From: Helicobacter sp. MIT 99-5507
GTDB taxonomy: Bacteria > Campylobacterota > Campylobacteria > Campylobacterales > Helicobacteraceae
Assembly: GCF_003364295.1 (NCBI RefSeq)
Contig: NZ_NXLO01000003.1
Location: forward strand, 248,001 to 312,000
Direction of reading: 5' to 3'
DNA length: 64,000 bases
Under the pieces are notes generated by a model. That model searched no databases. It was given only the letters and a program-made list of their open reading frames with translations, and was not told the DNA's origin. Below, piece after piece: positions 1-64,000 of the stretch. Position 1 is the stretch's first letter; the number at the start of each line of letters is the position of its first letter. The position numbers and the translations under genes were made by a program.

Positions 1-438
1 AAGCGAAAGAGACAAAGCATCTTCTAATAATATATCAATACAAGCTATACATATCAATTTATTTTTATTGTCATATACAGGATAAGACGCAGTTACTACG
101 AGCTTTCCACCTATTTTTGAAGGATATGGATCTGTTATTACAATCCGTCTTTCTTTTATGCTTTCATAATAATATGATCTATTTGAAAAATCAGAATCTA
201 TAAACTCATCTGCTTGTTTTCTATCAAAGATTCCATTTACTAAGATTCCATTTTCATCAAGTATATAAAATGTATTAAAAATTTTTATTTCATTATGAAT
301 TCTAACCATTCTACTTTGGACTTGATTAATGCTTGTATTTGGCATATAGTTTTTTATATTTTGCTCAAAAATAAAACTCATATAAGCTCGTATTTCATAT
401 CTTAGTTTTGAATACATAGCAATATCTCTTGAAAGCAA
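1..438 (-). CDS. PDC/Cache sensor-domain protein, partial at left edge
   Basis: An open frame runs leftward off the window edge (146 codons visible), and its 3' end is not present. The start is taken as TTG at 438 because a strong AGGAGGA sits 5 nt upstream (444-450). An ATG eight codons in (417) has no comparable site. The visible part has the layout of a Cache/PDC extracellular sensor: a helical N-terminus, a strand with LDENGILVNG near residue 70, and the late motif ASYPVYDNKNKLICIACIDI near residues 120-139. Such domains bind small ligands at the outer face of chemoreceptors, kinases or cyclases. I see no membrane helix in the visible part, so the output domain is unknown. The SD overlaps the stop of the exonuclease gene, so the two are probably co-transcribed. 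Confidence 0.7.
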   Translation of the reverse strand, partial: MLSRDIAMYSKLRYEIRAYMSFIFEQNIKNYMPNTSINQVQSRMVRIHNEIKIFNTFYILDENGILVNGIFDRKQADEFIDSDFSNRSYYYESIKERRIVITDPYPSKIGGKLVVTASYPVYDNKNKLICIACIDILLEDALSLSL

Positions 439-448
439 AAAAATCCTC

Positions 449-1234
449 CTACAATCTATTTAATTCTTGTGTAATATAATCTTTAAATATATCTGTATAA
501 TTTTTATTTTGTGGAATCTTATCAAAAAAAACATTTAATAAATTTGCATAATCTTCTATATTTATTTTATCTTGCAATAATAAATATTTTAAAAATAGCC
601 AATAAGTATTCAATACATCACTTTGGCAATAATCATTTATTTGTTGAATCTTATTTTCATAATAAAGTCTAAATACATCATCACCGCTTGTATCAAATTT
701 GCCTGGAATATTTGCCATTTTACAAACTATATCAAGACGCATAGCCCTTACTGCACCAAAAGAACCAAGACAATCAAGCAAATCTATATGAAAATTCTCA
801 CTATAACGACTACGATAATTCTCCCATTTGCTTTTATTGTATTTTGGATTCTGGATTTCAAAATAAGCACTAGCATTAAGATTATATTTCATTGCTCTAA
901 GCATAATAAGAGGAATATCAAAATTTCTACCATTAAAACTTACTAATTTTGGATTGTGCTTATTAAAATAATGCAAAAAATCGCTTATTATTTCTTGCTC
1001 GCTTAATCCTTCTTTGTAATTAACAACTTTTATAAAATTACAATTCTCATCGCAAATCACAGCAGATAAAGATATTATTTTATGAAATGGGAGTGGCAAA
1101 AATGAGCTTCCATTAATACTTTCTTGTGTTTTAAATGCAATTTCACATACATCTATATCACTACCTTTATAATCATAAACCTCTCTTAGAAGCTCCACAT
1201 CTGGGATACTTTCACAATCAAAAACACAAATCAT
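449..1234 (-). CDS. PolB-like 3'-5' exonuclease (DEDDy type)
   Basis: A predicted 3'-5' exonuclease of the family resembling the proofreading domain of DNA polymerase B (about 261 aa). The acidic motifs are visible in order. Motif I is FDCESIPD near the N-terminus, motif II is SFNGRNFDIPLI near residue 100, and motif III is YCQSDVLNTYWL near residue 205, with the Tyr-x3-Asp typical of DEDDy nucleases. These residues coordinate two metal ions for removal of nucleotides from a 3' end. The start is placed at ATG 1234 because AAGAG lies 5 nt upstream. The in-frame GTG at 1240 overlaps that site. It is transcribed with the downstream sensor gene and divergently from the methyltransferase. A repair or proofreading role is inference. 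Confidence 0.85.
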   Translation of the reverse strand: MICVFDCESIPDVELLREVYDYKGSDIDVCEIAFKTQESINGSSFLPLPFHKIISLSAVICDENCNFIKVVNYKEGLSEQEIISDFLHYFNKHNPKLVSFNGRNFDIPLIMLRAMKYNLNASAYFEIQNPKYNKSKWENYRSRYSENFHIDLLDCLGSFGAVRAMRLDIVCKMANIPGKFDTSGDDVFRLYYENKIQQINDYCQSDVLNTYWLFLKYLLLQDKINIEDYANLLNVFFDKIPQNKNYTDIFKDYITQELNRL

Positions 1235-1280
1235 AATCACTCTTTTGTATCTAAAATAATTTAAAGATTCTAATCTAAAA

Positions 1281-1286
1281 TATAAT
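1281..1286 (+). promoter_or_regulatory. candidate -10 box of the glycan locus
   Basis: A perfect TATAAT lies in the 93-nt divergent gap between the exonuclease gene and the methyltransferase start at 1328. An SD-like AGGAG precedes that ATG. No clear -35 is seen, as is usual for sigma-80 promoters of Campylobacterota. Confidence 0.45.
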
Positions 1287-1327
1287 AGAATCCAACCTTA
1301 AATTTAAAATCGAAATTTAGGAGAAAT

Positions 1328-2060
1328 ATGAATTTTTTAAGAAAAATAAAACATATATTAATAAATATAAAAATTAATATATAGAAAAGTAAATCCGCCA
1401 CAATGGCATAATTTAAGACAGCTAGAGCCGGTTTCTAGAGTATTTGGATTTGATAGGGGAACTCCAATTGATAGAATCTATACAAATGATTTTTTGCAAA
1501 AAAATAAACATCACATCAAAGGCATTGTATGCGAAATAGCAGAATCTACATATACAAAACAATTTGGTAGCAATGTAGTAAAAAGTGAAATTTTGCATTA
1601 TACAAATGATAATCCAGCTGCGACAATCATTGGTGATTTGACAAAATACGAGAATCTTCCAAAAGATTATTTAGATTGTTTTATTTGCACTGTTACATTA
1701 AACTTCATACATGATTATAAAAAAGCAATACAAGGGATTCACTCCATGCTAAAACAAGGTGGAGTAGCTTTGGTAAGTGTTTGTGGTCTCATCCAGATAT
1801 CAAGATATAATTATGAGAGATGGGGAGATTATTATAGATTTAGTGATATGGGAATAAAAAAAGATTTTGAAGAAATATTTGGAGATGAAATAGAAGTTAG
1901 CACTTATGGCAATGTATTGGCTGCTGTAGCAGAATTGCATGGAATTGCAAGCGAAGAATTAAGCAAAGATGAAATTTTTTATAAAGACCCAGATTATCAA
2001 ATATTAATTACTATTGTTGCAAAAAAGTCAGATAAAAACTTAAACAAGGAAAAACTATGA
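1328..2060 (+). pseudogene. SAM-dependent methyltransferase, frameshifted near the N-terminus
   Basis: The natural start is probably ATG 1328, with AGGAG just upstream. It gives 18 codons and then TAG at 1382. One frame over, the reading continues as VNPPQWHNLRQLEPVSRVFG and runs intact to 2060. Losing one A from the A5 run at 1369-1373, or an equivalent change in the adjacent TA-rich stretch, would fuse the two. The joined protein resembles class I methyltransferases found in glycan clusters: FGFDRGTPIDR near the N-terminus, GIVCEIAESTYT as the SAM-binding motif, DYLDCFICTVTLNFIHD, and a GDYYRFSD segment. An internal TTG at 1494 could start a shorter product, but it would lack the conserved N-terminal part. 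The stop overlaps the next gene by ATGA. It is called broken here; phase variation at the A/TA run or a sequencing error are alternatives. Confidence 0.65.
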
Positions 2061-3010
2061 AACAAAAAATAAAAGCTGTTTTGAATAGTAGGGGGGGGGT
2101 AATAGGTAATTTAAGAAGAAAAATTTTTGAAGGCAAAGGTGTAATATTTATGCTACATCAAATAGCTCCAATAAATCCAAATAAACTTCCTGCAAATGAA
2201 AATATGAAAATTAGCCCAGATTTCTTAGAATCCTTTATCATAAATTTAAAAAATGATGGCTATAGCTTTATATCTATTGATGAATTGATAAATCATCTAA
2301 ACAACAACACCTTACAAAAGAAAAATATTTGTATCACAATTGATGATGGATATAAAGACAATCTTACATATGGATTTGATATTTTTAAAAAACATAAGAT
2401 TCCATTTTGTATTTATACTTGTGCTTCATTTTTAGAGAAAAAAGCAAATATGTGGTGGTTTGGGCTTGAAGATTATCTATTGCAACATTCAAGTATAATA
2501 TTTAATGATGAAAAAATAAAGCTAGATACAATAGAAGAGAAAAATATAACTTTTTTAAAAATTAGAGATTATCTTATATCAAAAATCAATGATTATGAAC
2601 ATGCAAAAAACACAATGCAAGAAATAGGCATAAACTATGATATGGATAAATATAATGATTTAGCACTAAATTATGATGATATAAATTTTATGTTAAATGA
2701 CAAAGACAATCTAATGACACTTGGACATCACACATATTCTCACCCAATCTTTAATAATATAAATGATGAAGAAATAAAACAAGATATATTAAAAGCAAAT
2801 AATGTTTTTAATAATCATTTTGGATTTATTCCAAAACATTTTGCATATCCATTTGGAGGCAGGATAGAAGTATCAAAGAAACATTTTGAATTAATAAAAA
2901 ATATAGGTTTTAAAAGTGCTACTACAACAAGGCATGGAAGTATATTTGATGAACATAAAACACATCTTTATTCCCTTCCTAGAATCTTTTTAAAAGACAT
3001 TTTGATATGA
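2057..3010 (+). CDS. polysaccharide deacetylase family protein, phase-variable, ON
   Basis: A NodB/CE4-type deacetylase (317 aa) expected to remove N-acetyl groups from a cell-surface sugar polymer. The catalytic Asp motif is ICITIDDGYKD (about residues 92-102), the zinc-binding HxxxH motif is GHHTYSHP (about residue 223), and the late motif is FAYPFGG. The start ATG overlaps the preceding stop by 4 nt, indicating translational coupling. A run of nine G's covers codons 12-14. With nine G's the frame is open, so the gene is ON in this sequence, and a gain or loss of one G would stop translation early. The C-terminus ends abruptly (KDILI), and a diverged second copy of this 3' end lies 186 nt downstream, so the tail may have been replaced. 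A role in lipooligosaccharide, capsule or flagellar glycan modification is inferred from the neighbours. Confidence 0.8.
   Translation: MKQKIKAVLNSRGGVIGNLRRKIFEGKGVIFMLHQIAPINPNKLPANENMKISPDFLESFIINLKNDGYSFISIDELINHLNNNTLQKKNICITIDDGYKDNLTYGFDIFKKHKIPFCIYTCASFLEKKANMWWFGLEDYLLQHSSIIFNDEKIKLDTIEEKNITFLKIRDYLISKINDYEHAKNTMQEIGINYDMDKYNDLALNYDDINFMLNDKDNLMTLGHHTYSHPIFNNINDEEIKQDILKANNVFNNHFGFIPKHFAYPFGGRIEVSKKHFELIKNIGFKSATTTRHGSIFDEHKTHLYSLPRIFLKDILI
2091..2099 (+). repeat. poly-G tract (G9), phase-variation switch of the deacetylase
   Basis: Nine consecutive G's inside the 5' coding part of the deacetylase in an otherwise G-poor region. Tracts of this length are the standard slipped-strand contingency switch in Helicobacter and Campylobacter. 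Here nine G's keep the frame open. Confidence 0.9.
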
Positions 3011-3025
3011 ATACAATATTTGATT
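2981..3025 (+). repeat. direct repeat copy A (3' end of the deacetylase gene)
   Basis: This 45-nt segment starts AGAATCTTTTTAAAAGA and ends ATATTTGATT. It recurs at 3167-3212 with about five differences and a 1-nt indel. Copy A covers the last codons and stop of the deacetylase. Confidence 0.8.
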
Positions 3026-3166
3026 TTAGAAAAAAGAGAGTGGTATTAGACTAATAAATCTATAAAAACAAAGGCTTTTGTGTATAAAAGCGGCTATCTT
3101 ATAGCAAGATTCTTATAAGGAATAATAAAATAAAATGCCTACATAGCAAATATCTTTTCTCTTCTA

Positions 3167-3212
3167 AGAATCTTTTTAAAAGATATTTTTTATATGAATA
3201 TGATATTTGATT
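3167..3212 (+). repeat. direct repeat copy B (relic of a deacetylase 3' end)
   Basis: The second copy of the repeat, in the 225-nt gap before the FkbM gene. In one frame it reads SLLRIFLKDIF and then a stop, close to the SLPRIFLKDIL end of the intact deacetylase. It is probably the remnant of a duplicated or recombined gene end. Apart from this relic and an SD-like AAAGGA, I see nothing in 3011-3235. Confidence 0.7.
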
Positions 3213-3235
3213 AACAAGTAGATTAAAGGAAAAAA

Positions 3236-4055
3236 ATGAAATATTTAATAAAAGACATACTAAGACCAATATATCACTATGCTACAAATAAATATTACGC
3301 AAGAGATGTTTATTCATTATTTGATAAGTTGGGGGGGGGCAGCAAGGTATAAAGAGAAGAAAAATATTAAATTTAGAGATTTGATATTTGATATTCCTGA
3401 TAGTTTAAGCTTCATCTATCAAATAAAAGAAATTTTTGGAGATGAGATATATAAATTTAAATCCAAAAATAAAGAGCCACTCATTATTGATTGTGGTGCA
3501 AATGTAGGTGTTAGCGTGCTTTATTTTAAAAAGCTATATGAAAATTGTAAAATTTATGCATTTGAAGCAGATAAAAAAATATTTCAATATTTAGAACAAA
3601 ATATAAAAAATAATAATGCAAATAATATAGAACTGCACAATAAAGCAATATGGATTGATGATAATGGAATCTACTTTGCTAGCGATGGTGCTGATGGTGG
3701 TCATATAGAGCTAGATTCTAAAAATACACAAAAAATAGATTCTGTTGCTTTAAAAAATATCCTCTTAAAACATAGCTATATTGATTTTTTAAAGATTGAT
3801 ATTGAAGGTGCTGAAAATGAAGTCCTGCTAGATTGTAAAGATTCCCTAAATAATATCCAAAATATATTTATTGAATATCATCAAAGACATGATAAACCAC
3901 AGAATCTAGGAGAAATAATCAATATCTTAGATAAAGCAAACTTTAGAATCTATTTAGAAAATATCACAAAATATAAATCACCATTCTTGATAGAATCTAA
4001 AACTTGTGAATTTGAATTGCAAATAAATATCTTTGGTAGAAAAATACCAAAATAA
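3236..4055 (+). CDS. FkbM-family methyltransferase, phase-variable, OFF
   Basis: ATG 3236, preceded by AAAGGA, opens a frame that passes through nine G's and stops four codons later at TAA. One base over, the frame continues intact to 4055. Deleting one G (G8) or adding two would give one protein of about 272 aa. The body is an FkbM-type SAM methyltransferase: LIIDCGANVGVSVLYF (SAM-binding), IYAFEADK, and DFLKIDIEGAENEVLLDCK. Members usually O-methylate sugars or glycolipids. The internal ATG at 3279 has no ribosome site and would give an odd N-terminus. As sequenced the gene is OFF. The 3' neighbour at 4068 is a restriction-system relic, so the glycan cassette ends here. Confidence 0.8.
3331..3339 (+). 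repeat. poly-G tract (G9), phase-variation switch of the FkbM gene
   Basis: Nine G's at about codons 33-35 of the FkbM reading frame. The in-frame solution needs eight (or eleven), so the present length puts translation out of frame, with a stop at GTA-TAA just downstream. Confidence 0.9.
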
Positions 4056-4067
4056 TAAGGAGTTTTT

Positions 4068-5094
4068 ATGCAAAAGCCACCTTTAAATCAAATTCTTTAT
4101 GGACCTCCGGGCACTGGGAAAACTTATGCGACTATTGGTAAAGCTTTTGAAATTTTAGGAGTTAATACAGAAAATTTAACACGCAAGGAGCAAAAACTTA
4201 AATTTGATGAGTTTAGAAAACTAGGACAAATTGAATTTATTACTTTTCATCAAAGTTATTCTTATGAGGAATTTGTGGAAGGTATTAAGCCAAATATTGA
4301 TGATCCTGAAAATATGATTTATAAAACAAAAGATGGTATTTTAAAAGAATTAAGTTTAATGGCTTACGAAAATTTCAAAGCATTCAAGGCAAGTAAAGAG
4401 GATTTCATGGCAATGCTGTGTATTATTTTATGTTTTATAAAAAGTTAAAAGAATTTAAAGATACAAAATTTAAAGCTCGAAATATCAATGTTAAAGAAAA
4501 GTTAAAACCTTACATCCTCATCATTGATGAGATTAATAGAGGTAATATCTCTAAAATTTTTTTGGGAGCTTATCACCTTGATAGAACCAAGTAAAAGACT
4601 TGGCGAAAAAGAATCTTTAAAAGTAAAACTTCCATATAGTTATAATATTGACAATATTGACAAAGAATTTGGAGTGCCAAATAATCTTTATATCATAGGC
4701 ACTATGAATACAGCAGATCGAAGTATTGCTTTGCTTGATACAGCTTTGCGTAGGAGGTTTGAATTTGTTGAGATGATGCCAAATGCTGAGGCTTTAAAAG
4801 AGATTTGGCTTGTTAAAAACGATGTAGATAGTATTAGCGAGAATAATTTTATTGATGAATATGGAGTTAAAGAAAGTAAAATTTTATTTGGTATCCTCTC
4901 TGCGATAAATAATCGTATAGAGTTTTTGCTTGATAGAGAACACGCAATCGGGCATTCTTTCTTTTTTGAAAAAGCCGAATCTTTTTGATAACAACTTTAA
5001 TGAGCTTGATAGTGAAAAGACGATATATAAAATCACTGATTCTAAGGAGCGGGATTTAAAGAAATTCCAAGATATAATAAATAAAAATAGCTAA
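4068..5094 (+). pseudogene. mcrB: McrB-like GTPase subunit of a type IV restriction system, multiply frameshifted
   Basis: An AAA+ ATPase of the McrB type that in working systems powers cleavage of modified DNA with McrC. The pieces in order are: Walker A GPPGTGKTYAT with FHQSYSYEEFVEGIKP (frame of 4068); then, after a shift near 4425, FYKKLKEFKDTKFKA and Walker [15 protein letters not shown]; then, after a second shift at the T7 run 4557-4563, [38 protein letters not shown] and [14 protein letters not shown]; then, after a third shift near 4981, a tail NNFNELDSEKTIY ending at TAA 5092. At least three frame changes make a functional product impossible. There is no N-terminal DNA-recognition domain, so either it was lost or this was a minimal McrB. 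Confidence 0.85.
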
Positions 5095-5097
5095 ACA

Positions 5098-6241
5098 ATG
5101 AAAACAAATAACACCCTAGTTTTATGGTTTAAACAAGCTTAAAGTAAGAAATTATGTGGGTTTAATCCAAACCCAAAGTGGTTTTTGTCTTGAAATTTTG
5201 CCTAAGATTTTTAGAGGCAAAAAGAAATTAGAGCAAGATTTATAAAATAAAGCTTCAAATTCACAAGCAAAAGAAAGCAAATTTTCAGCCAAAAAAGCTC
5301 AAGATTTGCTTCTTAATATGCTTAAAACCCTTAAAAAACCCTCCTTTTAAGCAAAGAAATATCGCAACTTTAAAAGCCAAAATCTTCCTTTGCTTGAAAT
5401 TTTGTGTCCTTGTTTTTAGATGAGCTTGAAAAGCTTGTCAAACAGGGTATAAAAAGTGATTATATAGATTATGAACAAACCGCACTTTTTTAAAAGGCAA
5501 ATTGCTTTTTAATCAAAATCTTAAGCACAATTTTGCCCACAAAGAACGCTTTTACACCCTTGCTGATGAGTATAGCCAAAACCTATCTCAAAACCGCCTT
5601 ATAGTTGCTTCACTTTTAAAGCTTCAAAAGCTTAAATTTAGCTCAAGCACAAGACTTTTGCAATTTCGCTTTATTTTTGATGATATAGCTCAAAGCACAA
5701 ATTATAAGGCTGATTTTGCAAAATGTGTAAATTCAAGGCATTTTAAGGCTTATGAGCAAATTTTACCTTGGTGCAAACTCTTTTTAGAAAAACTCACTCC
5801 AAGCCCATATAGTGGAAGCTCAAAGGCTAGTGCTTTGCTCTTTGATATGAATAAACTTTTTGAAAGCTTTGTAGCTTTTTATATAAAAAACGTAGTAAAA
5901 AATACATAGTAAAATCGCAAGAAAAATCCAAATATCTAGTAACACAAAATGAAAAAGACGGATTCTAGCTATGCCCTGATATAGTAATTTACAGAAAAGA
6001 TCAAGATAAAGAACCGCCACTTGCCATACTTGATACAAAATGGAAAATCATAGATTCTATTAATGCAATCTCACAAAGCGATTTATATCAGCTTTTTGCT
6101 TATCTTGAGAAATATAAGTGCAAAAATGGATATATAATTTATCCAAAAATTGGTGATATAAAAAGAAATAAATTTATATACAAAGCAGAATCTAGCACAA
6201 ATTTGCATATTAGATTTTTTGATATATACAAAAGCTCCTAG
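5098..6241 (+). pseudogene. mcrC: McrC-like nuclease subunit, multiply frameshifted
   Basis: It begins 3 nt after the McrB relic. The opening ATG frame stops after 14 codons. The other frames supply KLKVRNYVGLIQTQSGFCLE and ILPKIFRGKKKL (about 5137-5244), a long middle part around 5502-5909 (TRLLQFRFIFDDI, YEQILPWCKLFLEKL, FDMNKLFESFVAFYIK), and the nuclease core after another shift. That core reads PDIVIYRKDQDKEPPLA, then ILDTKWK, then SQSDLYQLFAYLEKYK. The PD...D-x-K arrangement is the expected PD-(D/E)xK catalytic signature of McrC, so the active site is still legible although the gene is dead. There are internal stops around 5140-5500 and 5909-5980. Confidence 0.85.
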
Positions 6242-6314
6242 AATTTTTATGCTCCTAAATCATCAAAACTTTGTCTTAGCAAAAGTAACAATTAAGCAAA
6301 ATACATAGCAAGGC

Positions 6315-6670: not shown

Positions 6671-7155
6671 TTATTTCCTTAAATTGCGCATCGAATCTAG
6701 CGTAAATACAATATCTTCACCGCTAAGCGAGCTTGTATGGCAGCTTAAGCAGCGGTTGGTGTTTTCAGCGGTATTAAGTCTCTTATCCGCATTGAAAGCC
6801 TCAAAACGCCATTTTTTGTCGCGCTTTTGCATAATAATATAGCGATTAAGCTGCCCGCGCACTCCGCCATTGTTAGCATATTCTTCCATCGTGATAGTCG
6901 TTAATTCGGGCAGCTTGCCATCTGTTTGAAGCGCCTTTATGTCAGCCTTTTGGGCGCAAATATCCTCGATAACATTGCCCCGCTTGATACTTGCATACAT
7001 CACGCCGTTTTTGTAATCATGCGGGAAACTCAAATGCTCCATTGTGGAAGCTGAATCTAGTGTGGAATCTTGTGCTTGCAATGCACAGATTCCAAGCAAA
7101 CAAGCCGCAGATAGCGCACACAACGCTCCTTTTTGCTATATCGCAATAATTTCAT
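6671..7155 (-). pseudogene. cytochrome P460 family protein, frameshifted in the signal peptide
   Basis: A periplasmic mono-haem protein of the cytochrome P460 type. The mature part has DYKNGVMYASIKRGN, a middle RGQLNRYIIMQKRDKKWRFE, and a C-terminal haem site NRCLSCHTSS. ATG 7153-7155 has AAGGA upstream, but its frame is lost at the A5 run (T5 at 7130-7134). One extra A would join MKLLRYSKK to GALCALSAACLLGICALQA, a good signal peptide, giving about 161 aa. As sequenced only a TTG at 7123 could start the downstream frame, with an ill-spaced SD and half a signal peptide. G+C is visibly higher than in all surrounding genes, which suggests acquisition from a GC-richer relative. P460 proteins oxidise hydroxylamine or detoxify NO-type species; the substrate here is unknown. 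Confidence 0.7.
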
Positions 7156-7683: not shown

Positions 7684-8262
7684 TTAAATATTTCTTGCAT
7701 CACTTAATGTAAGAGCAAATAATACATTTACTCCATTTTTTTGCAAAACTTCCCTAGCCTCTTTTATGCTTAGCCCTGTTGTGATTATATCATCAAATAA
7801 AACTACATCAATATTTCTTTTACCTGTGTAGATAAAATCTTTTTTATTAGATTCTCTATATGCTAGAGTTTTTCCTGCATAGCAAATATCATTATTTGAA
7901 ACCAATACTCCAAACAATGGATAAAAAATACTATCAAATTCTTTTATAATCACACCGCAATGTGAATAATATTTTTTTACCCTATCATCAATCCCAATGC
8001 TAAAAATATTAAGAGAATCAAATGTGCTTCCAACTTCATCTATAAAATATAAAAATGCCTTTCTAGCTAGAATCTTATAGATTCTGCTACCTATCAAGCT
8101 ATATTTACTTCTTAATAAATATTCTATATCTTGATAATTAAAAAAACTATACACAACAAAATCATCAAAAGTTTTTCTTTTCTTTGGTGAGAGCGTTATT
8201 TTTTTATCACAAGATGGACAAATAAGTCTTATGCTTAAACTTTGACATAATATACACTTCAA
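7684..8262 (-). CDS. comF: ComF-family phosphoribosyltransferase-like protein
   Basis: 192 aa. An N-terminal zinc-ribbon (CILC near residue 3 and CPSC near 15) precedes a phosphoribosyltransferase fold with the PRPP-binding loop VVLFDDIITTGLSIKEA near residues 152-168. ComF proteins are needed for natural transformation in several bacteria and may act in single-strand DNA handling. The enzymatic reaction is not established. It is the last gene of the leftward serS operon, starting directly after the tmk stop. Its place next to tmk and coaD matches what I remember of H. pylori. Confidence 0.85.
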   Translation of the reverse strand: MKCILCQSLSIRLICPSCDKKITLSPKKRKTFDDFVVYSFFNYQDIEYLLRSKYSLIGSRIYKILARKAFLYFIDEVGSTFDSLNIFSIGIDDRVKKYYSHCGVIIKEFDSIFYPLFGVLVSNNDICYAGKTLAYRESNKKDFIYTGKRNIDVVLFDDIITTGLSIKEAREVLQKNGVNVLFALTLSDARNI

Positions 8263-8826
8263 TTAATTCAACTCTTTTATTTTTGAACAAATGATTTCAC
8301 AAATCTCATCTTTGTTTTTATCACAAGGTATAGCTATATAATCAATATTTAGAATCTCTACAATAGTAAATATCTTTTTTTGGATTTCTAAAAGATTCAT
8401 AACTCCAGTATTTTCTATATCATCTAGAATCTTGGAGCTAAGTCTATTTTGCAATATTTCCTTATTTGTTTCCAATATCACAACTAAATTTGGTTTTTTT
8501 GCAATTGCAAGATTTAGATTTAAAAGTAAATAAAAATCAAGAGAAGAACAATAAGCAACTCCGCTTATAAAACTTCTATCACTTATTATTAATTTATCTT
8601 TATTTGGTAGTATCAAATTTTTTGTATGATTTGCCCTATCGCTCATAAACAATAATGCTTGCGTGGTATTGTCTAAATTTCCATGCAATGCTAATTCTCT
8701 TATTTGCATACCAAAAGTGCTAGAACTTGGCTCTTTTGTAAAGATTGCATGTTTAAATTTTTTGCCCAAAAGCTCTATTTGTGTGCTTTTCCCGCTTGTA
8801 TCAACACCTTCTAAGACTATATACAT
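8263..8826 (-). CDS. tmk: thymidylate kinase
   Basis: Phosphorylates dTMP to dTDP in the cytoplasm for DNA synthesis. The P-loop is VLEGVDTSGKSTQIE at the very N-terminus, the Asp-Arg motif ISDRSFISGVAY lies near residue 85, and an EPSSSTFG segment corresponds to the Glu-Pro nucleotide region. It is about 187 aa, slightly shorter than the usual 200-210. The start is set at ATG 8826, with GGAG 7 nt upstream, rather than the in-frame TTG at 8832. The coaD stop lies in the same TGATAATG, so the genes are coupled. Confidence 0.95.
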   Translation of the reverse strand: MYIVLEGVDTSGKSTQIELLGKKFKHAIFTKEPSSSTFGMQIRELALHGNLDNTTQALLFMSDRANHTKNLILPNKDKLIISDRSFISGVAYCSSLDFYLLLNLNLAIAKKPNLVVILETNKEILQNRLSSKILDDIENTGVMNLLEIQKKIFTIVEILNIDYIAIPCDKNKDEICEIICSKIKELN

Positions 8827-8828
8827 TA

Positions 8829-9320
8829 TCAATCTCCATTGATACGAAAATTAGATTTGATATATGTATATACTTCTTTTGGCACCAAATGCTCTACATT
8901 GTAGCTATATACGAGTATAGATCTAACTATACTTGAGCTAATAAATATATTTTTTAATGTAGGCATAAAATACACAGTCCCTAAATCGCTATTTAGTGAA
9001 GAATTTGCATATCCTATCTGCAATTCATACTCAAAATCACCAACAGCCCTAAGCCCTCGCACTAAAATATTAGATTCTTTTTGTTTTGCAAAATCTGCTA
9101 AAAGGCAGGAAAACGGCTCTATTGTCACATTATCTATTTTTTTTGTTGCAAGTTTTAGCATCTCTACTCTACATTCAAGACTAAACATAGGATTTTTTGT
9201 GCTAGATTCTGCTACTGCAACTATCACTTTTTCAAAAATTTCACAACTTCGCCTAACAATATCTAAATGCCCATTTGTAACAGGATCAAAAGTCCCAGGA
9301 TATATAGCAATTTTACTCAA
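8829..9320 (-). CDS. coaD: phosphopantetheine adenylyltransferase
   Basis: The penultimate step of coenzyme A synthesis, transferring AMP to 4'-phosphopantetheine. The nucleotidyltransferase signature [15 protein letters not shown] is at the N-terminus, [14 protein letters not shown] in the middle, and ISSSIVRSI near residue 125 (usually ISSTFVR). It is 163 aa, normal for the family. It starts at TTG 9320, overlapping the ubiX stop by TTGA, with a GGGG stretch a few nt upstream. Confidence 0.95.
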
Positions 9321-9901
9321 GAATTACCCCATCTTTTATATATAGAATTTTTGATATTTAAAATATCAAGCCATTTTCCTATCAAAAAATCTTCCATAGA
9401 CTCTAAGCTAGAAATATTAGAATAATATCCAATTATAGGTGGTGCAATAACCACCCCTTCTTTTGATAAAATAAGCATATTATTTAATGATATAGAATCT
9501 AGTGGCATTTCTCTTGGTGCAAGAAGTAGTTTTTTTCGCTCTTTTAAACACACAAGAGCACTTCTAGTAATAAGACTATCACTAATCCCACAAGCAATCT
9601 TTGCTAATGTATTCATGCTACATGGAATAATAGCCATAGCATCAATTCCAAATGACCCAGATGATATACACTCACCTAGATTTAAATCATCTAGAATCTT
9701 GATTTTGCTTTTATGTAAATCTTGTAATAGTGGAGTGTTGAAATTATCAAAATCAATATTATGTTCAAAAAGCATTGTCTTTTTTGCGCCATTGCTAACT
9801 ACTAAAAATATCTCTAAATCATCCCTATCCCAAATCTTGGATAAAAATTTCAGTCCTAGCATTGCACCGCTTGCACCACAGATTCCAACTATTAGTTTCA
9901 T
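9317..9901 (-). CDS. ubiX: UbiX-type flavin prenyltransferase
   Basis: Makes the prenylated FMN cofactor for UbiD-type decarboxylases. The glycine-rich phosphate site [14 protein letters not shown] is at the N-terminus. [18 protein letters not shown] near residue 91 and [10 protein letters not shown] near residue 129 are the FMN and dimethylallyl-phosphate regions. It is 194 aa, normal. ATG 9901 overlaps the flgA stop by ATGA. The function is well supported by motifs, and the UbiD partner is outside the window. Confidence 0.92.
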
Positions 9902-10614
9902 TGCATTTCTGCCTTTTTGTCACCTAATATTTTTATATTTACTATTCTATCTCCTTGCAAACTTTTAGCTTTTATAATCTCTCCAATTGAAGCACTTTTT
10001 AATGCCTCTGCATTAAATATGATATTTATATTATCATCATTATAAAATACTTCTAGTATATCACCTTTTTGCACTATTATTTTTGGAGTGATTTTTGTAT
10101 TTGAAATTATTGCACCATTTGGAATAAAACTCTTTGCAGAATATTCATCAATGATATTTAATGATGCTGGAAGTTGCATATTTTTATCTATATAAATTTG
10201 CGTGATAGTGGAATTATTATTTGTGATAACTTCATTAGTTTTTATATCACTACTTGCAGATAATGCATCGATAGTTGCATTAATATTAAAGCTAAAAAAT
10301 ACCTTTTGATGTTTTTGATTGTGATATAAATGGACTTCAAAATTCCCACTATCTCGCCTTAATAATCTATCATCAAAAATAATCTTATCAATCTTTAATT
10401 GATTTAGATTTATTTGTATTGCAGGAGATACTTCTATATTATGAATGACAATATTATAAGGCTTGTATGTCGCTATAAATTTATCTTTTATAAAAGATTC
10501 TATTTGTGAAATTATTGCTTTATGATTTTGACTAATTGGAATTGTTGCATTATTATCCAAAATAGTTTCTGCATAAATAAAATTTAAGAATAATAAAAAA
10601 AATAAGATTCTCAA
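9898..10614 (-). CDS. flgA: flagellar P-ring assembly chaperone FlgA
   Basis: A periplasmic chaperone helping FlgI form the P-ring of the flagellar basal body. The signal peptide RILFFLLFLNFIYA is followed by an N-terminal region and the C-terminal SAF-like domain (INIIFNAEALKSASIGEIIK, GDRIVNIKILG). The start is set at TTG 10614, because TAAGGTG lies upstream and it begins the signal peptide exactly. The longer frame from 10635 would place seven residues before the signal and overlap uvrD. A flagellar gene inside a housekeeping operon is typical of this group. About 238 aa. Confidence 0.85.
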   Translation of the reverse strand: MRILFFLLFLNFIYAETILDNNATIPISQNHKAIISQIESFIKDKFIATYKPYNIVIHNIEVSPAIQINLNQLKIDKIIFDDRLLRRDSGNFEVHLYHNQKHQKVFFSFNINATIDALSASSDIKTNEVITNNNSTITQIYIDKNMQLPASLNIIDEYSAKSFIPNGAIISNTKITPKIIVQKGDILEVFYNDDNINIIFNAEALKSASIGEIIKAKSLQGDRIVNIKILGDKKAEMQ

Positions 10615-47808: not shown

Positions 47809-47979
47809 TTGAGACCCTTATTTAGCCCCATTAAATTAAATAGAATTATTGCACTTAATACAGCTGTAATCGATAAAATCCTAAAAAATATTTCAAAAAT
47901 AACCCATGATTCTAGCCAAACACTAGAATCTATATATAATACTATTTCAAATTATCAAAGGATAAGAGATGACAAATAG
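47809..47979 (+). CDS. small open frame overlapping the yihY start (uncertain)
   Basis: 57 codons from TTG 47809 to TAG 47977, overlapping the yihY ATG by 11 nt, with a helical, amphipathic composition (RIIALNTAVIDKILKNISKI, SQTLESIYNTISNYQRIRD). The frame is open well beyond chance for such AT-rich DNA. There is no good ribosome site. In the next frame just upstream, VVKDRIIPTTVSKLITYNAG runs into a TGA at the junction, so a one-base shift near 47808 could have split a gene of about 80 codons. Not recognised. Confidence 0.4.
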   Translation: MRPLFSPIKLNRIIALNTAVIDKILKNISKITHDSSQTLESIYNTISNYQRIRDDK

Positions 47980-52337: not shown

Positions 52338-52751
52338 TTATTTTGCTTTACCTGTTAATTTCCTACATGATTCATCATTCACATTACAAGTAAGGACTGG
52401 TGATTTTGTATTAGGATCAGTTGTAACAGTTAAAGCAACACTAACAGATCTAATATTAGCAGTCACGCTACTAGCACTATTTACTTTAAATGAGCAATTA
52501 TCACTATTATTGTTTTCTAAAGTTTTTAGATATGTTAGTGTATCAGCAGCATTTATTGTAGCTCCTTGTAAAAATTTTTTTGTGTATTCTCTTGATAAAA
52601 TTGTTTCAGTTTCAGATAGATTTGCTCTAAGTTTTGCAAAACACGCATCATCTCTACTAACTGAAAATCTAGGTAAAGCAATAGCAGTCAATACACCAAC
52701 TATAACAATAACAAACACAAGTTCTATCATACTAAAGCCAACTCTTTTCAT
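52338..52751 (-). CDS. type IV pilin-like / pseudopilin protein
   Basis: 137 aa. Prepilin leader KRVG with cleavage before Phe, then FSMIELVFVIVIVGVLTAIA with Glu at +5, the classic N-terminal helix of pilins and pseudopilins. The globular part carries four cysteines (DDACFAKL, DNCSFKVN, TCNVNDESC). It is divergent from the PilT gene, 150 nt apart, so they may be co-regulated. A major pilin cannot be told from a minor or competence pseudopilin here. Confidence 0.85.
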   Translation of the reverse strand: MKRVGFSMIELVFVIVIVGVLTAIALPRFSVSRDDACFAKLRANLSETETILSREYTKKFLQGATINAADTLTYLKTLENNNSDNCSFKVNSASSVTANIRSVSVALTVTTDPNTKSPVLTCNVNDESCRKLTGKAK

Positions 52752-52901: not shown

Positions 52902-54557
52902 ATGGAATCTAATATACGATTAAATAATCAAATAACTACATCAACACCAAAAATAAATACTATTGATGTATTAGCAAATGCAAAACCAATAAGACTAAAT
53001 AATACACCGCAAGAGCAAGAAAACATAGTAGATATAATAAAAAAAGAAGGACAAATCAAACAAACTCCGATACAAAATAACCAACCTCTACAAACCAACC
53101 AATCAATGCAAAATAGCCAAGCTAAACCAATAATCAAAAAAACAATACAAGAAAATACGATACCTAATCCAAGTCAAACAATAATAAAAAAAATAGATTC
53201 CATACAAATAGATAGTATAAGACAAAAAGCACCAAATCAAATTGAAGTGCCAATGACACCACAAATAAATAGCCAAATAAAACAAGAAATACAACAAAAC
53301 ACAATGCCATCTAGTAATCAAGTAGAATCTAAAAAACCAATTAACAATATACAAAATAAAGATAATTTAACAAGAACCCCATTACCAAGCAGTATGGCAG
53401 ATTATGATATATCTCAAATGACGGTTGATATTGATAAATTAGATTTTCATATGACAAAGCACATTAGAGGCTATCTAAAAAAACTAGTCAAAGTTGGTGG
53501 AAGCGATCTGCATATAAAAGCTGGTAGCCCTATTAGAGCGAGAATAAATGGTGATATTGTAATTTTTAGTGAAGAAATTATTAGCAAAAATGATGCACTA
53601 ACATTTGCAAAGGAATTAACAAGAGGAAGATTTGGTGAGCTAGTAGTCAATAAAGAAATTGATATGACATATATTTATGATCAAAATATAAGATTTAGGG
53701 TTAATATTTTCTTTCAAATGGAAGGTGTATCTTTTGCCTTTAGGACGATACCAACCACACATAAAACAACAGAAGAGCTAGGATTGCCTGATGCAATAAG
53801 AAAGATTGTAGACATGGAAAGAGGATTGGTGCTAGTTACAGGTATAACAGGCTCTGGTAAATCAACAACACTAGCAGCTATAATAAATGAAATCAATCAA
53901 AAAAAAGCAAAACACATAATAACAATAGAAGACCCGATAGAATTTGTCCATAAAGATATAAAAAGTATGTTAAATCAAAGAAGTGTTGGAATGGATACAA
54001 ATAGCTTTGCAAAAGCACTGAAAGCTGCTCTTCGTGAAGATCCAGATATTATTCTAGTTGGTGAGATGAGAGATATTGAGACAATAGAAATGGCGCTCCA
54101 TGCAGCAGAAACTGGACACTTGGTATTATCTACATTGCATACACTTGATGCAAAAGAAACAATAAATAGAATCATCTCTGTATTTCCAACTAGCGATCAA
54201 GCAAGGATTCGAGCTATGTTAGCAAGTGTTCTTGCTGCTATTGTATCACAAAGACTTCTAAAAGCAACAAGTGGAGGCAGGGTTGCGGCTGTTGAATTAT
54301 TATTTAAAACACCAAGGATAGAATTAATCATAAGTGAAGGAAGAGATGGCGAGATCTTAGAAGCTCTAGCTGAAGGAAAAGAAATATATCAAACTCAGAC
54401 TTTTGACCAACATTTATTTGACCTTGTAATAAATGGCATTGTAGATGAAGAGGTTGCTATGGAAAAAGCTACATCTCCATCAGATTTAAAACTTAGACTT
54501 CAAAATGTAAATTTTGCAGGACAAAGTAAAGATGATACAATCTCAATCAAACAATAA
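52902..54557 (+). CDS. pilT: PilT/PilU-family ATPase with long N-terminal extension
   Basis: A secretion-type hexameric ATPase that retracts type IV pili. Residues 1-170 are low-complexity and rich in Asn, Gln, Ile, Pro and Lys. The conserved part begins LKKLVKVGGSDLHIKAGSPI (about 191-210). Walker A VTGITGSGKSTTLAA (314 for the first Gly of the loop), Asp box IITIEDPIEFVHKDI, Walker B DPDIILVGEMRDIETIE, His box LVLSTLHTLDA. 551 aa; PilT is normally about 350, so about 180 residues are extra. SD GAGGA precedes the ATG. A terminator follows. Confidence 0.88.
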   Translation: MESNIRLNNQITTSTPKINTIDVLANAKPIRLNNTPQEQENIVDIIKKEGQIKQTPIQNNQPLQTNQSMQNSQAKPIIKKTIQENTIPNPSQTIIKKIDSIQIDSIRQKAPNQIEVPMTPQINSQIKQEIQQNTMPSSNQVESKKPINNIQNKDNLTRTPLPSSMADYDISQMTVDIDKLDFHMTKHIRGYLKKLVKVGGSDLHIKAGSPIRARINGDIVIFSEEIISKNDALTFAKELTRGRFGELVVNKEIDMTYIYDQNIRFRVNIFFQMEGVSFAFRTIPTTHKTTEELGLPDAIRKIVDMERGLVLVTGITGSGKSTTLAAIINEINQKKAKHIITIEDPIEFVHKDIKSMLNQRSVGMDTNSFAKALKAALREDPDIILVGEMRDIETIEMALHAAETGHLVLSTLHTLDAKETINRIISVFPTSDQARIRAMLASVLAAIVSQRLLKATSGGRVAAVELLFKTPRIELIISEGRDGEILEALAEGKEIYQTQTFDQHLFDLVINGIVDEEVAMEKATSPSDLKLRLQNVNFAGQSKDDTISIKQ

Positions 54558-54559
54558 AA

Positions 54560-54594
54560 CTAGAATCTAAATCTTTAAGATTCTAGAATTTTTA
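54560..54594 (+). terminator. rho-independent terminator of pilT built from AGAATCT/AGATTCT
   Basis: CTAGAATCT pairs with AGATTCTAG (54578-54586) around a 9-nt loop, followed by a T-rich stretch. The arms contain the abundant 7-mer of this genome in both orientations. Confidence 0.75.
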
Positions 54595-55969: not shown

Positions 55970-55970
55970 A

Positions 55971-56717: not shown

Positions 56718-56751
56718 TTTAATAAAAAATCTAATTATATTTTTTATTAAA
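56718..56751. promoter_or_regulatory. 13-bp inverted repeat upstream of porCDAB
   Basis: TTTAATAAAAAAT (56718-56730) and its exact complement (56739-56751) with an 8-nt spacer, ending 34 nt before the porC ATG. The position overlaps the probable promoter, so this is an operator-like element rather than a terminator, which would also need a T-run. Regulator unknown. Confidence 0.5.
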
Positions 56752-56785
56752 ATAGTTTGATAACATTAATCTTTAGGAGTGGATT

Positions 56786-57346: not shown

Positions 57347-57356
57347 GGAGATATTT

Positions 57357-57749: not shown

Positions 57750-57759
57750 GGGGGAGAGA

Positions 57760-58983: not shown

Positions 58984-58995
58984 TAGGAGATAGCA

Positions 58996-59940
58996 ATGAC
59001 AAGAGAAATTAAAAATTTAAAACAATTTTCAAATGTGGCAGAGAGATTTGAAGGTTCGCATTTATTATGTCCAGGTTGCGCACATGGTATGATTGTCCGT
59101 GAAGTGCTAAATGCGGTTGAGGGTCCTTTGCTTATTGGAACATCAACTGGTTGTCTTGAAGTATCAACTGCCGTATATCCATATACTTCTTGGAATGTGC
59201 CTTGGATTCATATTGGATTTGAAAATAGCTCTACTGCTATATCTGGTGCTGAAGCCATGTATAAAGCATTGGTAAAAAAAGGTAAATATAATGGAAAGAA
59301 ACCAAAATTTGTAGCATTTGGCGGTGATGGCTCTACTTATGATATAGGATTCCAATGGATTAGTGGATGCTTTGAGCGAGGACATGATATAACTTATATT
59401 TGCCTTGATAATGAAGTATATGCAAATACAGGCGGACAAAGAAGCGGTTCTACTCCGCTTGGTTCTTCAACTTCAACTTCACCTGCAGGAAGTGTAAGCT
59501 ATGGTAAAAAAGAAAAGAAAAAAGATATATTGCTTATTATGGCTGCACATGGAGCACCATATGTAGCTCAAGTGGCTCCAAATAAATGGAAAGATATGAA
59601 TAAAAAAATAAAAAGAGCACTTGATACAGAAGGACCAACTTTTATCAATGCAATGAGTGCCTGCACAACAGAATGGAGATTTAGCTCTAATAAAACGGTG
59701 GAAGTTAGTGATTTGGCTGTAGATTCTTTAGTATTTCCACTATTTGAAATTATTGATGGAAAAGAGTTAAATATCACATATAGACCAAAAAATATCATTC
59801 CTGTTAGAGATTATCTAGGTGCTCAAGCGAGATTTAAACACCTATTTAAACCAGAAAATGAACACATAATCGAGCAATTACAAAAAGATGTAAATAATAG
59901 ATGGGAATACCTCCAAAGAAGAGAGGAAGCAAAAGTATAA
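58996..59940 (+). CDS. porB: pyruvate:ferredoxin oxidoreductase beta subunit (TPP)
   Basis: 314 aa. It binds thiamine diphosphate: LCPGCAHGMIVREVLN at the N-terminus, GTSTGCLEVSTAVYPYTSW, and the TPP/Mg motif VAFGGDGSTYDIGFQWISG (about 101-119) with LDNEVYANTGGQRSGSTP. Cysteines in CPGCAHG and TGC, plus a later ACTTEW, are placed to bind the intrinsic cluster. Last gene of the operon; strong terminator behind. Confidence 0.95.
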   Translation: MTREIKNLKQFSNVAERFEGSHLLCPGCAHGMIVREVLNAVEGPLLIGTSTGCLEVSTAVYPYTSWNVPWIHIGFENSSTAISGAEAMYKALVKKGKYNGKKPKFVAFGGDGSTYDIGFQWISGCFERGHDITYICLDNEVYANTGGQRSGSTPLGSSTSTSPAGSVSYGKKEKKKDILLIMAAHGAPYVAQVAPNKWKDMNKKIKRALDTEGPTFINAMSACTTEWRFSSNKTVEVSDLAVDSLVFPLFEIIDGKELNITYRPKNIIPVRDYLGAQARFKHLFKPENEHIIEQLQKDVNNRWEYLQRREEAKV

Positions 59941-59942
59941 TT

Positions 59943-59976
59943 TTTATTAGAATCTAAAAAGATTCTAATAAAGTTT

Positions 59977-59978
<2 letters not shown>
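59943..59978 (+). terminator. rho-independent terminator of porCDAB built from AGAATCT/AGATTCT
   Basis: TTTATTAGAATCT (59943-59955) pairs exactly with AGATTCTAATAAA (59960-59972) around an AAAA loop, followed by GTTTTTAT. The 13-bp stem again contains the abundant 7-mer in both orientations. The T-run runs into the end of the convergent fabI. Confidence 0.85.
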
Positions 59979-61490
<1,512 letters not shown>

Positions 61491-61566
61491 TATCGACTAC
61501 CTTATGTAAAATTATTGTAGAATTTTATCTATTCTTAGCAAAGTTAAATATAAAAAAGGTTTTGCA

Positions 61567-62748
61567 ATGGAAGGTATATTAAAAGAAATAAACAACAAAG
61601 TAAAATTAAAATTAAGTATGTTATTAAACAATATTACGCCATCAAAAATACCAAAATTTGGAATACAAGATTCTAATAAAATTTTATTTTTTATCTACAT
61701 GCAAAACAACAAAATAGCACTTATTTCTCACAAAGATGATAAAAAAAGCGATGAAATCATAAAGGTTGGAATCCTAAATGATAAATTCACATTTTATCCA
61801 ATCAAACAAGATTCTATATATTTTGGAGAAAAGTTTGAATTGCAAACTTCTAGATTCTGTGAAAGCATTTTAAGTAATAAATTAAATATTATTACAAATA
61901 AAATATACAATGATATGGAGTTTTTCCTTGATAAAATCATAGAATATGAAAAAATATATGAAAATAAAATAGATAATATAAAAATAAAATTAGATTTGCT
62001 AGATAAAACAAATATCATTTCTGCAAATGATATATTATACAAAGAATATAGCAAGCAAATATTAGAAAAATTACATCAACTTGCAAAAACAAATATAAAA
62101 GATTCTTATCTAAATATATTTAGCATATTATATCCAGATGGAATATATAATATAGAGCATTTCATGCTACAAAAAACAGCTCTTAATGCAAATATGCTAA
62201 AAAATTACTACAACAAATCAAATCTAAGCAATCCAAATATAATAGAAAAAATAAATATAGAAATAAATAATCAAATATTAGAGATTAATTATCTAGTAAA
62301 AAATATGCATATTAAATGCTCTACAAATAGCCAGATTTATGCAGATTCTGAAGTAATAATAGATTCTATAAATGGTATCAATTTGCAACCAAATGAAATC
62401 TTGTATTCAAATAATGAAATAAAAGCAATCATAAATAAAGATAATCTTGTTATTAAGAATCTTACAAATAAAAATATCAATATAGATAATATAAAAAGCA
62501 TATTTTATATAGAGAATCCTATACAGCCATTTATTCAAACTATAAATTCAAATATAAAAATAAATGCAAATACGGAAATAAAAATAAATATCGATAAAAA
62601 AAATATAGTCATATCAAATCTAACAGATACTAATATTCAACAATATTTCATTATAAATAGCATCAAACTAGCTTATACAATAGATGATGAAATAAAAAAT
62701 TTAGTAGGCACAAGTAAGTATAAACTATATGATATTATTAATTTATAG
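61567..62748 (+). CDS. hypothetical protein, Asn/Ile/Lys-rich
   Basis: 393 aa, no signal peptide or membrane helix. The N-terminal third resembles a small alpha/beta domain (PKFGIQDSNKILFFIYMQNN). Residues 110-200 are helical and charged. The C-terminal half is beta-rich with repeated Asn-Ile-Lys strings (NKDNLVIKNLTNKNINIDNI; INIDKKNIVISNLTDTNI), which suggests a beta-solenoid or repeated small strands. I do not recognise it. It ends convergently with thrC, overlapping by 11 nt. A gene of unknown function beside thrC is also what I recall for H. pylori. Confidence 0.55.
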   Translation: MEGILKEINNKVKLKLSMLLNNITPSKIPKFGIQDSNKILFFIYMQNNKIALISHKDDKKSDEIIKVGILNDKFTFYPIKQDSIYFGEKFELQTSRFCESILSNKLNIITNKIYNDMEFFLDKIIEYEKIYENKIDNIKIKLDLLDKTNIISANDILYKEYSKQILEKLHQLAKTNIKDSYLNIFSILYPDGIYNIEHFMLQKTALNANMLKNYYNKSNLSNPNIIEKINIEINNQILEINYLVKNMHIKCSTNSQIYADSEVIIDSINGINLQPNEILYSNNEIKAIINKDNLVIKNLTNKNINIDNIKSIFYIENPIQPFIQTINSNIKINANTEIKINIDKKNIVISNLTDTNIQQYFIINSIKLAYTIDDEIKNLVGTSKYKLYDIINL

Positions 62749-64000
62749 ATTTTAGCCATTCTTTTATAATACTGCCTACATTACTACTATCTACTATTGT
62801 TTTATTGCACTCATCTTTATTGAATAAAGATTCTATATTTTTATGTATTGGTAAAGAAAATTTATTAGATATATAATCTAGAGCATCTTTATCACTACAA
62901 GCAGAATCTAAACCTAATGCTTTTGCTATAGTTGGTGCAAATTTGCTCCATTGTGCTGTTGATACAATAATAGTTTTTATTCCATCATTTTTATAAGCAT
63001 TTAGTGCAGTAGCAGTATGTGGATCTATGATAATATTTTTTTGTGCATATTCTTTTATGATGGCAAGAGTAGCATTGTCATCACTTTTATATGTATCAAA
63101 ATACAAATTAAGCTTTGCTAATTCATTATTGCTTATTTCATATGATTTATTTTTATCTAGATTCTCCATTAATTCTTTTGTTCTTTCATGACCATACAGA
63201 TGAAACAATACACGTTCCATATTTGAGCTTTTTAAAATATCCATAGCAGGAGAATTTGTCTTTAGTAATTTGCGATTTCTTATATCATATTTACCTGTTT
63301 TTATAAAATCAAAAAGGACAGAATTAGCATTTGTAGCAATGATAATTTTATTTATTTTTATACCCATTATTTTTGCATAAAATGCACCCAAAGCATTACC
63401 AAAATTTCCACTTGGAACGATGATATTAATAGATTCTGTATTGTTTATAATATGATTTTTTAAAAGATAAATATATGAATATATATGATAAATAATTTGG
63501 AATATGATTCTTCCAAAATTTATTGAATTTGTAGCAGAAATGCAAAAATTATTTTTATCCAAAAACTCTCTAAAACTCGTATCATTAAGTAGATTTTTTA
63601 ATATACTTTGTGCATCATCAAAATCACCATCTAGTGCTAATACTTTGATATTTTTTGCATCATTTGTAGTCATTTGCAATCTTTGGACATCGCTTGTGCC
63701 ATCTTTTGGATACATACAAATTGCATAAATATTTTGTGCATTTTTTACTGCCTCTAGTGTTGCAGGTCCTGTATCTCCGCTTGTAGCTGTAAGTATTAGA
63801 TATTTTTTATCTTCTTTTTTTACTAAATTACATAGCATTCTGCCAAATGGCTGCATTGCCATATCTTTAAATGCCCTTGTTGGACCGGTATATAATTTTT
63901 GAAGAAATAAATTATCATCTAGCTTAGCAAAATCTAGTGGAGTATGTGGATTATCAAATGTTTTATAAGAAAGAAGCGCATCATCAAGGAGACTAGAATC
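62738..64000 (-). CDS. thrC: threonine synthase, partial at right edge (N-terminus missing)
   Basis: Converts O-phosphohomoserine to threonine with PLP. The frame is open to the window edge. Visible from the right: LLDDALLSYKTFDNPHTPLD, the PLP lysine in YTGPTRAFKDMAMQPFGRM, ILTATSGDTGPATLEAV, IIVPSGNFGNALGAFYAKI and the C-terminal KTIIVSTAQWSKFAPTIAKA. 420 codons are visible, so roughly 60-70 residues of the usual 480-490 are missing. The first in-frame ATG (63862) lies after the PLP lysine and is not the true start. Confidence 0.95.
   Translation of the reverse strand, partial: DSSLLDDALLSYKTFDNPHTPLDFAKLDDNLFLQKLYTGPTRAFKDMAMQPFGRMLCNLVKKEDKKYLILTATSGDTGPATLEAVKNAQNIYAICMYPKDGTSDVQRLQMTTNDAKNIKVLALDGDFDDAQSILKNLLNDTSFREFLDKNNFCISATNSINFGRIIFQIIYHIYSYIYLLKNHIINNTESINIIVPSGNFGNALGAFYAKIMGIKINKIIIATNANSVLFDFIKTGKYDIRNRKLLKTNSPAMDILKSSNMERVLFHLYGHERTKELMENLDKNKSYEISNNELAKLNLYFDTYKSDDNATLAIIKEYAQKNIIIDPHTATALNAYKNDGIKTIIVSTAQWSKFAPTIAKALGLDSACSDKDALDYISNKFSLPIHKNIESLFNKDECNKTIVDSSNVGSIIKEWLKSIN

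Follow-up and report, generated by a model that had tools for sequence, protein, structure and literature searches.

Introduction

To our knowledge, words that mark DNA for uptake are established only in the Neisseriaceae and the Pasteurellaceae. The DNA uptake sequence (DUS) of the Neisseriaceae is given, in the available part of the source, as about 1900 copies in N. meningitidis and up to 3603 in K. denitrificans (PMC3630211). The uptake signal sequence (USS) of H. influenzae has about 1300 copies and forms terminator stems from inverted pairs, according to the excerpt at hand (PMC5217627). In cyanobacteria, the accessible text describes HIP1 as a perfect palindrome that is linked to orphan methyltransferases and iterated to an extreme degree throughout the genome (PMC4390886). 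In Campylobacter jejuni, methylated self DNA is recognised by a type II secretion/pilus-like machine; the methyltransferase is CtsM, and the available part of the source prints its motif as RATTY (PMC8468864). Here we describe the heptamer AGAATCT (AGATTCT on the other strand) in a 64-kb stretch of Helicobacter sp. MIT 99-5507, hereafter the window. The source genome, G000, has 1,534,953 bases in 7 contigs. Other genomes, genera and families are designated by the letters G, g and f with numbers.

The Helicobacter word resembles the DUS, as far as the source extends, in its hundreds to thousands of copies, in its presence both within and between genes, in inverted pairs near gene ends and in a family-wide spread with differences between species (PMC3630211). 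In contrast to the DUS, its core has 7–8 bp with degenerate ends instead of 10–12 bp, and its sequence is unrelated; the Neisseria word is read by ComP, and the present one is a putative uptake word. With the USS, as the excerpt presents it, the word shares its density and its inverted pairs in hairpin stems (PMC5217627). Unlike the USS, it has no clear extended flanking tract, save T-rich upstream positions in G046 of genus g3, and it is denser (4065 copies in 1.53 Mb of G000 and 16,584 in about 2.7 Mb of G046). The extreme genome-wide iteration is similar to that described for HIP1 in the accessible text (PMC4390886), but the word is odd in length and has asymmetric flanks, which a perfect palindrome does not, and the methyltransferase A1 considered below does not track it. 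C. jejuni is a member of the same order. Both have a type II secretion/pilus-like machine, which in C. jejuni discriminates self DNA; discrimination there, as far as the source goes, works via methylation of a common site (PMC8468864). The uptake system ComB of H. pylori belongs to the same family, if genus g2 below is the H. pylori group, and ComEC is retained there. ComB is a machine of the type IV secretion system type, and g2 has neither an excess of the word nor matches to pilins or the platform protein. The CtsM motif of C. jejuni is RAATTY.

We found no report of the AGAATCT word in Helicobacter in the searched literature, which subscription journals mostly fall outside. H. hepaticus is among the genomes analysed in one study, in the available part of which only a Shine-Dalgarno pattern is reported for it (PMC5217627).

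Over-representation and form of the word

The window contains 177 copies of AGAATCT/AGATTCT, compared to 21.0 expected from an order-2 Markov model, and this is the best z-score among all 7-mers there. The initial annotation had called the word strongly over-represented on the strength of eight copies counted in positions 8001–10000. That count turned out to be exact (5 + 3, Table 1), and the excess is larger than was claimed. The whole genome has 2028 forward and 2037 reverse copies, 4065 together; as a control we used the same pattern read backwards, which occurs 230 + 212 = 442 times. In a 552-kb sample of G000 that includes the window, the word was counted 1480 times versus 185.5 expected (8.0-fold) and ranked first among 7845 strand-collapsed 7-mers. 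Its rank was 1 or 2 among 7036–7845 such 7-mers in seven word-rich genome samples, and only 15 of 8072 (3.0-fold) in an eighth, G120.

We then asked how strictly the word is spelled, using 464 kb of G000. One-base neighbours of AGAATCT did not exceed 1.2-fold of the expectation, except at the end positions, where the variants with the first A replaced by G (4.9-fold), the last T by C (2.6-fold) and, weakly, the last T by G (1.6-fold) were raised. GGAATCC was enriched 3.5-fold in G000. All four RGAATCY forms are enriched in this and several other genomes, reaching 6.0–6.7-fold in 20 kb of G118. Several one-base neighbours were depleted; AGAGTCT/AGACTCT fell to 0.32 of the expectation, so the centre takes only A or T. 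Because of this depletion AGAATCT is not a GANTC site: a CcrM/HinfI-type site accepts any central base, and the GANTC-type methylation suggested in the initial annotation found no support.

On the strand that carries AGAATCT, 899 of 1479 copies had T just before the word and 620 had A just after it (z 10.3). The same asymmetry was seen in G046 (399 versus 258 of 438, z 11.0), with a T-rich run further upstream, and more weakly in the other g1 genomes (z 2.7), the other g3 genomes (z 4.2) and pooled g4, g5 and g7 (z 3.6). On account of the end variants and the flank asymmetry, T-RGAATC-Y is the most apt notation for the unit, which has a direction in g1, in g3 and in the pool of g4, g5 and g7. 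In these genera it is thus non-palindromic, as are the words of the DUS/USS class.

Location and inverted pairs

In G000, the density of the word is 2.60 copies per kb in open reading frames (ORFs) and 3.96 outside them, and it rises to 7.1 per kb where neighbouring genes converge (5.5 kb with 39 copies). Convergent regions of three g5 genomes had 2.1, 2.2 and 4.0 copies per kb. Among close intergenic pairs (starts 7–30 bp apart), summed over the seven word-rich samples, 75 were inverted and 16 direct, which is the arrangement near gene ends seen in the DUS/USS class. G120 had one direct intergenic pair and no inverted one.

Two exact inverted pairs had been reported behind pilT and a porB-type gene, and both are present (Table 1). 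As RNA, the first folds at −9.6 kcal/mol (z −3.2) and the second at −13.0 kcal/mol (z −4.3), each better than all of 200 shuffles. Of the further pair proposed at 47908–47930, the stem stands, but the pair is not exact, since the left arm has one mismatch. The copies described as overlapping in tpiA do make the 14-bp palindrome, but they abut (61394 and 61401). The consensus terminator scan, which needs at least three G-C pairs and a loop of 3–8, listed none of the three word hairpins. Therefore, the earlier label "terminator" holds for their position and fold only.

Conservation of sites

We compared amino-acid-conserved positions whose codons could spell the word. In g5, the word was kept in 96 of 128 cases and four control 7-mers in 7 of 29; these figures come from three pairs among three genomes, so they are not independent, and the mean orthologue identity was 75–79%. 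In g1, where G000 was set against its relatives and one site may count once per relative, the word was kept in 39 of 55 cases versus 7 of 36 for the controls. Retention was thus 71–75% for the word and 19–24% for the control words, and sites are conserved between species; the initial annotation had proposed a check between strains. Capable sites that were not words in one genome were words in the other in 17–24% of cases in g5 and in 6.7% (2/30) in g1. Since retention is high and few capable non-word sites are words in the other genome, this looks like upkeep of particular sites rather than merely their frequent creation.

Distribution of the word and of the pilus-like machine

Copies in 121 genomes of the family were compared with the reversed control at rounded genome sizes; such ratios are deceptive for genomes in which the control is scarce. 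The word reached at least twice the control in 80 of the 87 genomes outside genus g2 and in none of the 34 g2 genomes; at least fourfold was reached in 64 of the 87. All 34 g2 genomes had 0.08–0.20 copies per kb, or 0.2–1.4 times the control. G046 is the densest of the 121, with 6.1 copies per kb, about three times its genus median. Traced through PilT, the nearest named relatives are Helicobacter sp. 16-1353 and MAGs of the Helicobacteraceae, which identifies the family. In 21.6 kb of Helicobacter sp. 16-1353 we counted 43 copies versus 6.3 expected. Genus g2 appears to be the gastric H. pylori group, because eight of its genomes have TrbI-domain ORFs of 1734–1851 amino acids, a size which we take to match CagY.

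An order-wide survey covered 398 genomes (46 of the family and 352 others). No genome outside the Helicobacteraceae in this survey came near the density of the word-rich genomes. G121, from a neighbouring family, stands out with 1412 copies in 1.7 Mb and 2.9 times the expectation in 40 kb; the other 351 had at most about 0.42 copies per kb. A few of these, among them G157, G182 and G194 of family f23 and G172 of f6, are at 2–5 times the control and may be mildly raised. In the word-poor genera, 20–60-kb samples of G086, G095, G096, G108, G111 and G113 showed no dominant alternative 7- or 8-mer.

The platform protein T2SSF (PF00482) of type II secretion and type IV pili was found in 86 of the 87 genomes outside g2, the miss being G047 (67% complete), and in none of the 34 g2 genomes. 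The pilin motif PF07963, counted at E ≤ 0.01 (72 genomes are over the curated cut-off), had the same distribution, 86/87 and 0/34, with G101 as the miss. The inner-membrane DNA channel is conserved, since ComEC was found in 119 of the 121 genomes (the misses, G002 and G047, are both incomplete). Taken together, these matches describe a pilus-type competence machine like that of the DUS/USS class. The VirB10/ComB10-type protein (TrbI/VirB10, PF03743) occurs in 34/34 g2 genomes and in 37 of the 87 others.

Interpretation as a probable uptake word

It is fairly probable that AGAATCT, or T-RGAATC-Y, is a self-recognition word of the DNA-uptake type that is read by a pilus-like machine. We favour this reading because the word is dense, symmetric between strands, directional, kept at its sites and paired near gene ends, occurs in genomes with a pilus-type machine and shows no excess in g2, where that machine is absent. 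DNA that bears the word would be preferred by an apparatus of the pilus-like type II secretion/competence kind, made up of a Cts-like secretin, an ATPase, the platform protein and pilins, with a pilin or another surface component as the possible reader. Import and recombination would favour fragments that contain the word, and copies would then spread and persist at set positions on either strand, within genes as well as outside them. Inverted pairs may have been reused as hairpins behind genes. Genus g2 may have lost the word on switching to ComB-type uptake.

Several observations weigh against this interpretation. The word excess and the machine are jointly absent in 34/34 g2 genomes, yet at least seven genomes with the machine, and possibly as many as eleven, show a small excess or none; the joint absence in g2 could also go back to a single event in evolution. 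Seven genomes outside g2 are below twice the control (G094, G095, G096, G108, G110, G111, G113), and G086, G109, G112 and G114 stand at 2.0–3.0-fold; within g11, the genomes outside those seven get no further than 2.0–3.0-fold. Six of these word-poor genomes were also sampled against the Markov expectation: G086, G096, G108 and G113 gave 0.8–1.1-fold and G095 and G111 1.6–1.8-fold, and all six are T2SSF-positive. There was no flank asymmetry in pooled g6, g9 and g10 (z −0.4) or in g12 and g13 (z 0.8). Intergenic enrichment is uneven (1.7-fold in G046, 1.6 in G068, 1.4 in G000, about 1 in G044, G059 and G090, and 0.8 in G120), and direct close pairs inside genes are not rare (99 direct and 180 inverted in the seven word-rich samples). 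The core is shorter than the known uptake words (9–12 bp). PilT passed the family cut-off in only 17 genomes of g1, g11, g12 and g13 (at E ≤ 1e-80), so at this threshold it is not universal and was rejected as a tracker of the word. The number of pilin-motif genes was rejected as well, since word-poor genomes carry as many matches as word-rich ones. The distributions of PilT and of the pilin motif thus pointed to no candidate, and a reader of the word was not found.

The uptake word proposed in the initial annotation fits the strand symmetry, the inverted pairs, the site conservation and the association with a pilus-like machine, and fits poorly the genomes that have the machine and no clear excess. 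We infer the uptake role, the surface reader and the loss in g2 through ComB.

A broader proposal is that the non-gastric Helicobacteraceae are a third, independent uptake-word lineage, using T-RGAATC-Y with a pilus-like machine, and that the H. pylori lineage lost both and adopted ComB-type uptake; for us this is evenly balanced between true and false. It would place a third case of an uptake word in another phylum (Campylobacterota), with graded density over 121 genomes and one genus without word and machine, and would provide a natural experiment on the origin and decay of uptake words. The joint loss would explain the promiscuity of H. pylori for DNA, and the question of why H. pylori imports any DNA, and its relatives perhaps do not, would become directly testable.

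Alternative explanations

By analogy with HIP1 and its orphan methyltransferases, the excess could be linked to a DNA methyltransferase with the recognition site RGAWTCY, but this is unlikely in our view. The degenerate R and Y ends and the enrichment of all four RGAATCY forms do resemble an enzyme site, and a small beta-class methyltransferase, A1, is shared by three genomes of g1; in G001 it has dprA close by. However, the flank asymmetry is ill-suited to a palindromic site. Our survey took in PF01555 enzymes in five genomes of the genus, and A1 in all 121. A1 (E ≤ 1e-20) is in 46 genomes; it is absent from 28 with at least four times the control, including G046, G004 and G090, and present in the word-poor G086, G094, G095 and G096. 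Its distribution is thus unrelated to the word, and this solitary enzyme was rejected as the cause. The neighbours of A1 are dprA and a ruvX-like gene in G001 (L096:3426-5296), a HARE-HTH protein in G003 (L094) and a sir2-type gene in G000 (L095); the names ruvX and sir2 are readings of translations.

A Chi-type recombination word for AddAB/RecBCD would be short, directional and very frequent, and would maintain its sites, as is observed; all the same, we hold it to be quite unlikely. The strand symmetry that the initial annotation had wanted checked is there: in stretches of three genomes with a GC skew beyond 0.05, the G-rich strand carried 842 copies (51.6%) versus 789 for the opposite strand (z 1.3), and in G000 sense and antisense copies were equal (550/567). 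A polar site of the Chi or KOPS type was rejected on these counts, though the strand bias is weak for some Chi sites. The excess of inverted intergenic pairs would not be expected of such a word, nor would the lack of excess in the g2 genomes; H. pylori has AddAB.

A neutral product of context-dependent mutation or of a repair bias resembling very short patch (VSP) repair seems improbable. The word is genome-wide, strand-symmetric and present in coding and non-coding DNA, and the depletion of several one-base neighbours would suit such a process. It is the retention of words over control words and the small proportion of capable non-word sites that are words in the other genome which speak against it.

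The dense, near-random spacing over the sampled chromosome, with gaps of 370 bp on average and a median of 237 versus 257 expected, could suit a binding site of a nucleoid or chromosome-organising protein, but the absence of strand polarity and the unexpected excess of inverted hairpin pairs make this very improbable, and we know of no such protein for AGAATCT.

A codon-pair or composition artefact, with no excess in non-coding DNA, was the counter-explanation that the initial annotation itself had named, and we give it practically no credence: copies are most frequent in the frame that reads GAA-TCT or GAT-TCT, but the enrichment extends to each of the three frames of either word (3.8–8.6-fold), G000 is denser outside genes, and 217 ± 12 of 1119 coding copies were left when synonymous codons were shuffled gene by gene in mechanically called ORFs of 464 kb of G000, with 575 versus 131, 288 versus 68 and 467 versus 98 in three g5 genomes.

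Features of the window and of the pilus genes

Table 1. Copies of the word, hairpins and pilus-related genes; positions are those of the window unless a contig is given.
Feature	Position	Strand	Details
AGAATCT/AGATTCT copies	1..64000		85 on +, 92 on −; about 1 per 360 bp
AGAATCT/AGATTCT copies	8001..10000		8 copies; + at 8069, 8351, 8426, 9494, 9693; − at 8079, 9072, 9204
Inverted repeat	47908..47930	+	8-bp stem; exact word at 47925 only, left arm TGATTCT (1 mismatch); −8.6 kcal/mol, z −5.7
Type IV pilin-like protein	52338..52751	−	N_methyl motif
PilT/PilU-family pilus ATPase	52902..54557	+	TIGR01420, 414 bits; part of a pilus-type apparatus, without demonstrated link to the word
Inverted pair behind pilT	54560..54586	+	Words at 54562 (+) and 54578 (−); 9-bp stem just past the pilT stop, then T-run
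porB-type gene	58996..59940	+	Convergent with the fabI-like gene; name read from translation
Inverted pair behind porB-type gene	59942..59973	+	Words at 59949 (+) and 59960 (−); 14-bp stem, then T-run
fabI-like gene	59977..60801	−	Name read from translation
Palindrome in tpiA	61394..61407		Two abutting inverted copies, 14 bp; gene name read from translation
Uptake cluster of G000	G000:C3, ~207–216 kb (L065)		Platform protein, GspE-like ATPase, secretin; neighbours mostly without informative Pfam match

The order of genes in the G000 uptake cluster presumably resembles that of the cts genes of C. jejuni. We asked whether such clusters are word deserts and rejected this as a general rule: over nine genomes they contained 124 words versus 147 expected (P 0.03), with low numbers in G000, in G106 and, weakly, in G120, and not in the other six.

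Matches to the pilin motif number 12 in G000, 16 in G001, 12 in G002, 12 in G003 and 8 in G004, and 0–5 in the other 116 genomes of the family. The dispersed pilin genes of G000 are at L229–L235, L238 and L239 on contigs C1, C2 and C4, with a fragment in L237. Nine full-length pilins (175–183 amino acids) have a common N-terminal part of about 90 residues and a common C-terminus around a mosaic centre, and their first 265 nucleotides are 83–98% identical. Judging by the sequences, this family seems suited to produce pilin variants through recombination. At a second pilus locus of G000 (L038:14195-17225, or G000:C4:54195-57225), another PilT gene accompanies three genes for proteins like minor pilins, whose relatives occur in G120 (L105:942-2700). 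The three minor pilins are possible candidates for readers of the word.

Within the window, the stretch from the copy at 48570 to the one at 54562 is poor in the word, with only four copies in between, all on the + strand (48918, 50342, 51645, 53324). It spans nrfH/nrfA-like genes, named from their translations, the pilin and pilT. Runs of C or G (up to 10) are strongly over-represented and scattered through the window; such runs are known from phase-variable genes in related genera. Positions 4068–5909 hold what reads as a broken McrB/McrC-like restriction region, with AAA-type ORFs at 4068–4448 and 4524–4988 followed by a remnant at 5502–5909.

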